From assembly GCF_022271405.1 (NCBI RefSeq), contig NZ_JAJNAL010000003.1:1-64000 (forward strand): a DNA stretch of 64,000 nucleotides, written 5' to 3'. Below are positions 33,962 to 59,098 of the stretch, piece by piece. Source of the DNA: Rhodopseudomonas infernalis (GTDB lineage: Bacteria > Pseudomonadota > Alphaproteobacteria > Rhizobiales > Xanthobacteraceae). The stretch's first letter is position 1; each line of letters opens with the position of its first letter. The translations under genes and the position numbers were made by a program. Below the pieces are notes generated by a model that was not told the origin of the DNA, did not search any database, and saw only the letters and a list, made by a program, of their open reading frames with translations.

Positions 33962-34420
33962 GTCAGTCGGCCGGACGGCCGCTCCGGCAAGCGCCGAAAG
34001 GCCGCCGGGGAGGAAAGTCCGGGCTCCATCGACATACGGTGCCGGATAACGTCCGGCGGGGGCGACCCCAGGGAAAGTGCCACAGAGAACGAACCGCTTC
34101 CTCTTTCTTCTCCCTCCCCCGCTTGCGGGGGAGGGTCGGGGTGGAGGCAAGTAAGGGTGAAAAGGTGCGGTAAGAGCGCACCGCGTCGCCGGCAACGGAG
34201 ACGGCATGGTAAACCCCACCGGGAGCAAAACCGAATAGGGATGGCATCGCGGATAGTTCGCTCTTCGGAGCGATAACTCCGCAGGGTGATGTCAAACCCG
34301 CCGTCCGGGTAGGTTGCTCGAGGCGCTGTGCAAACAGCGTCCCAGAGGAATGGCCGTCGCGTATCACGTCCGCAAGGAGGTGGTGCCCTCCAGAACCCGG
34401 CTTACAGGCCGGCTGATACC
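33962..34420 (+). ncRNA. rnpB: RNase P RNA (bacterial class A)
   Basis: Catalytic RNA of RNase P, which trims tRNA 5' ends. Closing helix P1 pairs 33964-33972 (CAGTCGGCC) with 34407-34415 (GGCCGGCTG). The conserved core is clear: GAGGAAAGTCCGGGCTCC, the GGGAAAGTGCCACAGAGAA region, AAGGGTGAAAAGGTGCGGTA, CAGAGGAATGGCCGTC and AGAACCCGGCTTACAGGCC. It is about 455 nt, longer than the roughly 400 usual. The extra length lies in P12, where a palindromic repeat forms the helix (34106-34152). Ends are accurate to a few bases. Confidence 0.95.
34106..34152. repeat. REP-like palindrome inside RNase P RNA helix P12
   Basis: An 11-bp perfect stem at 34112-34122 and 34125-34135 (CCCTCCCCCGC and its complement, TT loop) is followed by TCGGGGTGGAGGC. 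The same element with the same TCGGGGTGAGGGC-type tail occurs at 59059-59098, and in related form at 57449-57484, 57510-57550 and 58980-59022. In rnpB it replaces the normally short, variable P12 tip. Confidence 0.85.
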
Positions 34421-34457: not shown

Positions 34458-34482
34458 GCCATTTGGCGACCGCCGCTTCCGC

Positions 34483-34563
34483 GTCATTACGAGCGAAGCG
34501 AAGCAATCCAGAAGCTCAGTGCGCTGGGCTGGATTGCTTCGTCGCTCCGCTCCTCGCAATGAC
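34483..34563. repeat. GTCAT/ATGAC inverted repeat downstream of rnpB
   Basis: Same family as 26307-26380: GTCATTACGAGCGAAGCGAA...ATCCAG on the left and CTGGATTGCTTCG...GCAATGAC on the right, with arms that have drifted. It fills most of the space between rnpB and the convergent efflux gene. Confidence 0.85.
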
Positions 34564-34629
34564 GAACAGCGTACTCATTGCCAATGATAGTAAAGGACCA
34601 GCAACGCGGCGGCATTCATTGAAATACCC

Positions 34630-55728: not shown

Positions 55729-55736
55729 AGATTCGT

Positions 55737-55863
55737 TCCGAGGGGGGCTCCGACGAGGAGCTGAGATACTGCAAGCTCGCCGCTTCAACCGTTTGTCGCA
55801 TTGAAGCTGAGCGAGACCGCAGTGACCCTTTGAACCTGATCCGGGTCATGCCGGCGAAGGGAC
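55737..55863 (+). promoter_or_regulatory. TPP riboswitch (THI element)
   Basis: Conserved segments are all present: GGGGGGCTCC...GGAGCTGAGAT (P2/J with the pyrimidine-sensing CUGAGA), an optional stem P3a, then GACCCTTTGAACCTGATCCG and GGTCATGCCGGCGAAGGGA. It ends five bases before the thiO start codon, so it probably acts on translation by masking the ribosome binding site in GAAGGGACAGGG when thiamine pyrophosphate is bound. Confidence 0.95.
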
Positions 55864-55867
55864 AGGG

Positions 55868-57019
55868 ATGCACCAGAGACTCGAAGGCCTTCGCGGGGCC
55901 GAATCCGCTCATTCACCCGTATACGCATCTGCAGCAGTGACCTCCGCAGCAGCGACAGCTGCTGCGCCCCCCCGTTCGGCCACCGAGCCGAGCGCCGCGG
56001 CGCTTCGCAGCGAGAAGCCGGACCTGCGCAAGGACGCGCCGGTGTCGGTGGTCGGCGCCGGCATTTCCGGCGCCTGGCAGGCGCTGCTGCTGGCCCGCGC
56101 CGGCCGCAAGGTCACTCTGTACGAGCGCGGCGACCGGGCGATGACGCAGGCGACCAGCCATTGGGCCGGCGGCATGCTGGCGCCGTATTGCGAGGCCGAG
56201 GGCGCCGAGCCGATGGTCGGCCAGATCGGGCTGCGGTCGTTAGAGATGTGGCGCGCCGAATTCCCCGAGGCGGTGTTCAACGGCTCGCTGGTGGTGGCGC
56301 ATCCGCGCGACCGCGCCGATTTCGAACGCTTCGCCAAGATGACCTCCGGCCACAAGCGGCTCGACGCCGACGGCGTCGCCGAGCTCGAGCCGGCACTGGC
56401 CGGCCGGTTCCGCGAAGGCTTGTACTTCCCCGACGAAGGCCATGTCGAACCGCGGCTGGTGCTGGCGCGTCTGCACGAGCGACTGATCGAGGCCGGCGGC
56501 GAAATCCACTTCGAATCGGAGATGACGCCGGAACACCTCGACGGCCTGGTGATCGACTGCCGCGGCATGGCCGCGCGTGACAAAGCTCCCGAACTCCGCG
56601 GCGTCAAGGGCGAGATGGTGGTGATCAAGACCAGTGAGATCACGCTGTCGCGCCCGGTGCGCCTGATGCATCCGCGCTGGCCGCTCTACGTCATCCCGCG
56701 CGAAAACAATCACTTCATGCTGGGCGCCACGACGGTCGAGAGCGAAGATGAGCTGGTGATGGTGCGCTCGGCGCTGGAACTGCTCAGCGCCGCCTACGCG
56801 GTGCATCCGGCGTTCGGCGAGGCGCATATCGTCGAGATCGGCGCCGGATTGCGTCCTGCGTTTCCCGACAATCTGCCGCGGATCGCGATCGGCAACCGCC
56901 GCGTCGCGACCAACGGCCTGTATCGCCACGGCTTCCTGATGGCGCCATCCCTCGCCGAGAAGGTGGTGGCCTATGTCGAGCGCGGCGAGATCGATAATCA
57001 GGTGATGCGATGCTTGTGA
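55868..57019 (+). CDS. thiO: Glycine oxidase ThiO
   Basis: FAD enzyme that makes the iminoglycine (dehydroglycine) used in thiazole formation, 383 aa. The FAD motif is VSVVGAGISGAWQALLLARA (about residues 58-77), then THE-type YERGDRAMTQATSHWAGGML; the C-terminal GLYRHGFLMAPSLAEKV closes the fold. An Ala/Ser/Pro-rich stretch of about 45 residues precedes the Rossmann fold and is unusual. The start lies directly after the riboswitch. The gene overlaps thiS by 10 bases. Confidence 0.92.
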   Translation: MHQRLEGLRGAESAHSPVYASAAVTSAAATAAAPPRSATEPSAAALRSEKPDLRKDAPVSVVGAGISGAWQALLLARAGRKVTLYERGDRAMTQATSHWAGGMLAPYCEAEGAEPMVGQIGLRSLEMWRAEFPEAVFNGSLVVAHPRDRADFERFAKMTSGHKRLDADGVAELEPALAGRFREGLYFPDEGHVEPRLVLARLHERLIEAGGEIHFESEMTPEHLDGLVIDCRGMAARDKAPELRGVKGEMVVIKTSEITLSRPVRLMHPRWPLYVIPRENNHFMLGATTVESEDELVMVRSALELLSAAYAVHPAFGEAHIVEIGAGLRPAFPDNLPRIAIGNRRVATNGLYRHGFLMAPSLAEKVVAYVERGEIDNQVMRCL

Positions 57020-57207: not shown

Positions 57208-57571
57208 GAATGGCCTCGCTCCACACGCCGCCGTGCTCGCATCGGGGTGACGCACAGCGCACGCCCCACACCCTGCCGTCATCGCATCGCGGTGAAGCAC
57301 AGCGCCCGCCCAACACCCCGCCGTCATCGCCCGGCTTGTCCGGGCGACCCAGTATTGCAGAGCGCTCGTGTTCAACCACTGACTCTCTGGGATACTGGAT
57401 CCCCGCCTTCGCGGGGATGACGGGTGTAGTTGGAGTGGGCGCCCCTGCTCCCCTCCCCCTTGCGGGGAGGGGTCGGGGTGGGGGTCCGCGAGTCGCAGTG
57501 CCTGTGTCGCCCTCACCCCAGCCCTCTCCCGCAAGCGGGAGAGGGAGCGCGCAGTGCTCGGAGCATAGCCC
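57208..57571. repeat. Palindromic repeat cluster between thiS and thiG
   Basis: The 364 bases carry no gene but three repeats. One is a dual-hairpin GTCAT/ATGAC element (57323-57421) with left TCGCCCGG-CTTGT-CCGGGCGA and right CCCCGCC-TTC-GCGGGG hairpins. The others are a CCCCTCCCC/GGGGAGGGG stem with TCGGGGTGGGGG tail (57449-57484) and an inverted CCCTCTCCCGC stem (57510-57550). Short direct repeats (CCGTCATCGC, CACAGCGC) precede them. Confidence 0.85.
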
Positions 57572-58979: not shown

Positions 58980-59098
58980 CCCTCACCCCAGCCCTCTCCC
59001 GCAAGCGGGAGAGGGAGCGCGCCGTGCGCGCGGCGCCGCCCAGACCGATGCGCTAATTCCCCCTCTCCCGCTTGCGGGAGAGGGTCGGGGTGAGGGCG
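58980..59098. repeat. Inverted pair of CCCTCTCCCGC palindromes between thiE and thiC
   Basis: 58980-59022 carries CCTCACCCCAGCCCTCTCCC with a GCGGGAGAGGG complement. 59059-59098 carries the same element in opposite orientation with the TCGGGGTGAGGGCGAC tail. Together they form a long potential stem in the thi transcript. This is the family found in rnpB P12. Confidence 0.85.

Follow-up and report, generated by a model that had tools for sequence, protein, structure and literature searches.

Repeats within the RNA subunit of ribonuclease P (RNase P) are already known from Rickettsia and from cyanobacteria, and the idea of such an element in this ribozyme is not new. In the cyanobacterial RNA, STRR repeats are said to enlarge the P12 helix. 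Excerpts of one paper report that the RNase P RNA of heterocyst-forming cyanobacteria contains STRR repeats (Vioque 1997, cited in PMC2858038), and describe P12 as an end stem of the specificity domain, with no universally conserved nucleotides and with a role that varies between bacteria, being dispensable in cyanobacteria, for one (PMC2858038). Rickettsia palindromic elements (RPE) have been reported in M1 RNA and in tmRNA, according to parts of a review (Delihas 2007, PMC2229807). Repetitive extragenic palindromic (REP) sequences provide a further point of comparison. A 2013 paper on those of alphaproteobacteria is reportedly the work of Di Nocera and others. Sections of that paper describe the REP families GTAG and CGTC, with R. 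palustris and Bradyrhizobium among the hosts and with REPs inside protein genes (PMC3733652, 2013). Herein, we describe a 64,000-nt stretch of DNA from Rhodopseudomonas infernalis (contig NZ_JAJNAL010000003.1, positions 1 to 64,000; the window), whose RNase P RNA gene, rnpB, probably carries in P12 one copy of a REP-like dispersed palindromic repeat that lengthens this peripheral helix. From sequence comparison, this reading is given a probability of about 0.8.

The gene matches Rfam model RF00010 over its full length at 294.1 bits (E 3.4e-95; class A cut-off 100), and this is the sole match in the source genome. An earlier note on the window, the original prediction, had claimed a canonical RNase P RNA with a hairpin and tail between core elements, which proved correct; the span it gave for the element, 33962..34420, is that of the whole gene, and the element itself is confined to P12 (Table 1). 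The 54-nt P12 segment is bounded by ...GAACGAACCGC on the 5' side and TAAGGGTGAAAAGG on the 3' side, and the core that flanks it is the same as in relatives by rnpB comparison. Its hairpin, CCCTCCCCCGC-TT-GCGGGGGAGGG (34112-34135), has the predicted 11 bp as DNA, whereas the RNA fold of P12 alone gives 10 bp with a 4-nt CUUG loop. A CUUG loop closed by a G-C pair is a stable RNA loop. As the gene is single-copy, the RNase P RNA with its long P12 is presumably transcribed and catalytically active.

The link to a dispersed family rests on pattern searches of the source genome. A 36-nt pattern of hairpin plus tail, allowing ≤3 mismatches, found 93 matches (48 on the forward and 45 on the reverse strand, rnpB included, with one two-tailed site counted on both strands), while the reversed pattern, used as a control on the same genome, found none. 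Similarly, the 26-nt palindrome at ≤3 mismatches occurs at four sites in the window, rnpB included, and at none in 100 shuffles. A 39-nt pattern built from the rnpB copy itself matched, at ≤3 mismatches, only rnpB and two other genome sites, which places the rnpB copy in a minor, GC-richer variant of the repeat. Reading of the copies gives CTCCCTCTCCCGCTTGCGGGAGAGGGTTGGGGTGAGGGC as the common form, in which the tail lies on the right-hand side of the CTTG loop, and a two-tailed full palindrome lies at C67:146691-146738. In line with REP sequences, the repeat is a palindrome of 20-40 bp present in many copies, some of them in opposite-orientation pairs: 13 such pairs at ≤200 bp comprise 26 of the 93 matches, 11 with tails outward, in a raw hand count without a chance expectation. 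No GTAG or CGTC tag is constant among the listed copies, judged by eye; CGACGC follows many copies, not all, and reads GCGTCG on the other strand. The four further copies predicted near 59059, 58980, 57510 and 57449 are all present, the last one imperfect.

Table 1. Positions within the window of rnpB, its P12 element and the dispersed repeat copies.
Feature	Position	Strand	Evidence
rnpB, RNase P RNA, bacterial class A, single copy	33963..34420	+	Rfam RF00010, 294.1 bits; single genome match
P12 helix region, 54 nt (17 nt in many relatives)	34098..34151	+	Rfam alignment; comparison with relatives
Palindrome CTCCCTCCCCCGCTTGCGGGGGAGGG, 26 nt, core of the dispersed repeat	34110..34135	+	Pattern matches to genome copies
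Tail TCGGGGTGGAGGC, 13 nt, one base different from the repeat's tail TYGGGGTGRGGGC	34136..34148	+	Pattern matches
Imperfect dispersed copy with tail TCGGGGTGGGGG	57448..57484	+	Sequence read
Dispersed copy upstream of an ORF that we take to be thiazole synthase-like	57510..57547	-	Pattern match
Dispersed copy, left half of inverted pair	58980..59017	-	Pattern match
Dispersed copy, right half of inverted pair with 58980..59017	59059..59096	+	Pattern match

Two other elements lie near these features. Just 3' of rnpB, an inverted palindrome pair (34482-34510 / 34530-34564), starting with CGTCATT and ending with CCA, fits the description of CGTC REPs in the sections seen of PMC3733652. In addition, a thiamine pyrophosphate (TPP) riboswitch (55731-55879, 66.2 bits) lies about 1.6 kb ahead of the stretch that holds the four dispersed copies.

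Within the genus, a single rnpB match was found in each of 16 Rhodopseudomonas genomes, and P12 has the repeat form in four (G000, G003, G004, G014), a length of 17 to 28 nt in seven, and an unrelated 78- to 80-nt form in five (L012-L016). The genes L009 (G004) and L005 (G006) differ outside P12 by 8 substitutions in 381 columns, and inside it chiefly by the palindrome, which occupies 26 nt between CTTCCTCTTTCTT and TCGGGGTGGGGGC in L009, where L005 has similar arms around a plain loop. Furthermore, L007 is without the palindrome and retains the exact tail TCGGGGTGGGGGC, which suggests that the palindrome was lost there. P12 thus differs among relatives instead of being one form common to all, and its match to the repeat is specific, as the original prediction implied. 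A genus tree from neighbour genes was infeasible, the 1400 bases upstream of rnpB matching in 0 of the 15 other genomes and long downstream matches being found in 9 of the 15.

Across the family, RF00010 was matched at E ≤0.001 in 365 of 391 genomes. A pattern covering P12 lengths of 34 to 64 nt gave matches in 31 of the 391, and in 18 of these 31, from 9 genera, P12 contains the hairpin at an edit distance of ≤5; as the pattern accepted exact flanks only, the number of such genomes is at least 18. P12 could be extracted from 144 of 146 fetched loci (L207 and L232 did not parse), a non-random set of 16 from the genus, 30 top scorers, 20 long-P12 picks and 80 from the listed, higher-scoring RF00010 matches. 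Most of these P12s are short, with arms unrelated to the repeat, and the edit distances to the 24-nt hairpin are two-humped (18 at 0-5, 3 at 6 and 123 at ≥7); for each of the 21 P12s at a distance of ≤6, the best of 300 shuffles reached 5 to 7. Four g20 P12s (L150, L152-L154) that resemble drifted copies were not counted, their edit distances of 6 to 8 lying at or near the shuffle range. Among the 18 strict P12s the loop is CTTG in 16, CATA in one, CATG in one and CAAG in none. In G064, P12 has both tails; aligned with a two-tailed palindrome that stands free in the same genome, it agrees in 45 of 50 columns (4 mismatches, 1 gap), and with a dispersed copy from G389, of another genus, in 40 of 40 columns. 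All 18 genomes have a match to the repeat, this being the rnpB copy in G079, as seen, and presumably in G046; copies besides rnpB occur in 16 of the 18 versus any copy in 251 of the 373 others (hand count), a weak association at best. As a separate observation, the draft genome G030 has two rnpB matches (C79:4165-4536 and C80:9262-9667), of which the C80 copy holds the repeat in P12; the doubling reflects either two genes or a mixed assembly.

Beyond the family, genome records scanned for the hairpin core placed before AAGGGTGAAA yielded 55 loci. Of these, 15 are, by reading, long P12s of the hairpin type, about 9 of them likely from genomes that the 18 already include; the remainder are short P12s or lie outside rnpB. 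The long-P12 records include Bradyrhizobium, Afipia, Pseudolabrys, a Hyphomicrobiales bin (L120) and an Anaerolineae bin (L103). The class A cut-off is exceeded by each of six more rnpB genes of the hairpin type, one of them truncated by a contig end. The P12 of L120 measures 95 nt and contains two tandem hairpins, in an RNA that is still class A (259.3 bits).

The route by which the repeat reached P12 can be viewed in very similar rnpB genes with and without it. Outside P12, such pairs differ by 3 substitutions in 379 columns (L142 and L056), by 4 substitutions and 2 gap columns (L144 and L238), and by 5 substitutions in 375 columns (L146 and L224). The empty P12 sites that had been expected in relatives were thereby found in part: pairs with and without the repeat exist with 3 to 8 differences elsewhere, but mostly the whole P12 differs and is not simply interrupted, so exchange between rnpB genes fits as well as insertion followed by change. 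It is accordingly a serious possibility, though one held at less than even odds, that short-tract recombination across conserved flanks moved P12 cassettes from the rnpB of one species to that of another, the repeat having entered once or a few times and travelled since. Such exchange would explain why the whole P12 differs while the remaining rnpB differs at 3 to 5 positions, why an A-rich arm type is found in several genera with no other fitting copy in five genomes, and why an unrelated 77- to 80-nt P12, found only in rnpB in the genomes searched, is patchy and common to two genera. It explains less readily why genomes of g1 and g6 whose P12 bears the repeat's own tail also contain dispersed counterparts of that P12, and why a similar hairpin occurs in the rnpB of a Chloroflexi bin, which would be hard to reach by rnpB recombination, although bins can be wrong. 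In a pattern search of 30 genomes, the A-rich arm type ATAAAGGGAGGGG matched in rnpB only in five (G023, G046, G172, G360, G389) and had dispersed copies in three (five in G030, two in G066 and seven in G095). Because this type is confined to rnpB in the five genomes, while the own-tail type has dispersed kin (G064, G389), we think that both routes, insertion and P12 exchange, probably occur, and that the repeat has entered rnpB more than once. The 80-nt P12 of L012-L016 was itself considered as another repeat and rejected, its matches being limited to rnpB in 5 of 8 genomes searched and absent from the other 3. This unrelated form, of 77 to 80 nt, is alike in two genera (L012-L016 in g1; L216 and L234 in g27) and patchy in both.

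An ancestral P12 repeat that was inherited vertically in the family and lost in most lines is unlikely. In its favour, the repeat occupies the same place and has similar arms throughout 9 genera, its loop is oriented as CTTG in 16 of 18 P12s, and short P12s with repeat-like arms look like loss products (L005, L007, L206, L233); against it stand the short P12s with unrelated arms that prevail among the fetched genes, and the rnpB tree. On a tree of 143 rnpB genes with P12 omitted, the 17 repeat rows (L157, cut by a contig end, was left out) are scattered, requiring at least 15 state changes, a count that does not separate gain from loss, and a single clade is rejected (approximately unbiased (AU) test, p 3.8e-11). 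Under an earlier, looser labelling, 20 rows counted as repeat rows, and 17 changes were obtained on a quick tree, many of whose forks are open. Finally, independent origin of GC-rich P12 stems with a CUUG loop that merely resemble the repeat is highly improbable: short P12s with CCCGCTTGCGGG do occur in distant bacteria, e.g., Alkalimonas and Microbulbifer, and the CAAG orientation is found in 0 of 18 P12s, as expected if the RNA loop mattered, but the match takes in the tail as well as the hairpin (39 nt for the genus; in G064, 45 of 50 columns) and the edit distances are two-humped, with shuffles well off for most.

Under the favoured reading, that P12 carries a copy of the dispersed repeat, the element would have entered at the DNA level, either by insertion or by a swap of P12 between rnpB genes through recombination across the conserved flanks. 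It would then be transcribed and retained in the mature RNA, where the palindrome would fold on itself into a longer peripheral helix of the specificity domain and leave the catalytic core unchanged. Such an element is probably tolerated rather than useful, and P12 seems repeatedly to gain hairpins of this kind, to lose the inner palindrome and to be replaced. We read the P12 repeat as a tolerated extension of the peripheral helix, which the stem mismatches in several P12 copies (L145, L158, L159) suit. The stability of the CUUG loop may mean that the orientation was selected; common descent explains the orientation equally.

Several results weigh against the favoured reading. The repeat is often present elsewhere in genomes whose P12 lacks it (251 of 373), and neither repeat pattern finds any match in G079 other than the rnpB copy. 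Arms and loop both differ in most of the near-identical pairs, L142 and L056 having no P12 stem in common, which plain insertion does not explain, and transfer from one rnpB gene to another is possible for the ATAAAGGGAGGGG arm type. The tree of rnpB is short, and its quick version leaves 56 of 139 inner branches open. Folding showed no preference for the RNA strand: over 25 P12s (3 from the genus, another 14 of the strict 18, 4 drifted ones of doubtful status and 4 from named records, with L011 omitted as identical to L009), the mean asymmetry was -0.04 kcal/mol and the RNA strand was lower in 13. In L001, L009 and L010, C-to-T differences in the 5' arm yield 4 to 5 G.U pairs on the RNA strand versus 0 or 1 on the other; selection at the RNA level, read from these pairs, was dropped, there being no asymmetry over the 25 P12s. 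The other 123 P12s (L011 included) gave a mean of -0.88 kcal/mol with the RNA strand lower in 83, and 75 dispersed copies, whose flanks are not comparable to P12, gave -5.3 with the RNA strand lower in 73.

In addition, no transposase could be linked to the repeat among 31 transposase loci of the source genome and relatives (L141 and L272-L301, some of them pieces of one gene or below cut-off). The Y1 transposase family is matched once in the source genome, by a REP-associated tyrosine transposase (RAYT; NF047646, 191.7 bits) at C41:251-865 (L141), beside a gene that is presumably katG-like. Two repeat copies lie nearby, and the direct flanks on both sides are a different, GTAG-type palindrome, GTAGGGTGGGC; the RAYT was therefore rejected as evidence for a mobiliser of the repeat. 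Transposase models matched in 13 of 20 relatives, and of the 30 loci taken from the 41 matches listed, one holds the repeat. Altogether, the palindrome is found in 2 of the 31 loci, L141, where the GTAG-type palindrome intervenes, and L274, where it lies >400 bp from the gene. Of the original proposal that a mobile repeat had settled in rnpB, the specific match to a dispersed repeat and the patchy P12 thus stand, whereas mobility itself is deduced, with no transposase tied to it.

A broader interpretation is tentative and somewhat doubtful: P12 might be a hot spot that repeatedly takes up dispersed palindromes as well as unrelated hairpins, whole arms might pass between species as cassettes, and the rnpB of G079 might shelter an element that has otherwise died out in that genome. 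In any case, nature offers here a set of closely similar ribozymes that differ in whether a self-folding element of 26 to about 50 nt occupies one particular site. With such a set, one can ask directly what P12 can accommodate, whether it is insertion or recombination that brings repeats into structural RNA genes, and whether the capture of genome repeats is a way in which peripheral RNA helices grow.

Among known systems, no report of REPs or of the present repeat in rnpB was found in a limited search of open-access literature, most subscription journals lying outside its scope, and the word rnpB is absent from the main text of PMC3733652. By the sections seen of that paper, GTAG and CGTC REPs and the present repeat are alike in size, palindromic form, high copy number and opposite-orientation pairs (PMC3733652). 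In the present repeat, no GTAG or CGTC tag stands out as a constant element. The tail GGGGTGAG fits the motif GGGGWSAS given there for the terminal inverted repeats (TIRs) of TIRYT genes, a lead only (PMC3733652). STRRs are short tandem repeats by name, whereas the present element is a palindrome with a tail. RPEs, to which the original prediction had pointed as repeats in Rickettsia RNA genes and which are indeed in print there, are described in the part of the review consulted as 105-146 bp long and Rickettsia-specific (Delihas 2007, PMC2229807); compared by description, the present palindrome measures 26 to about 50 nt, lies in P12 and is found in several other alphaproteobacterial genera.
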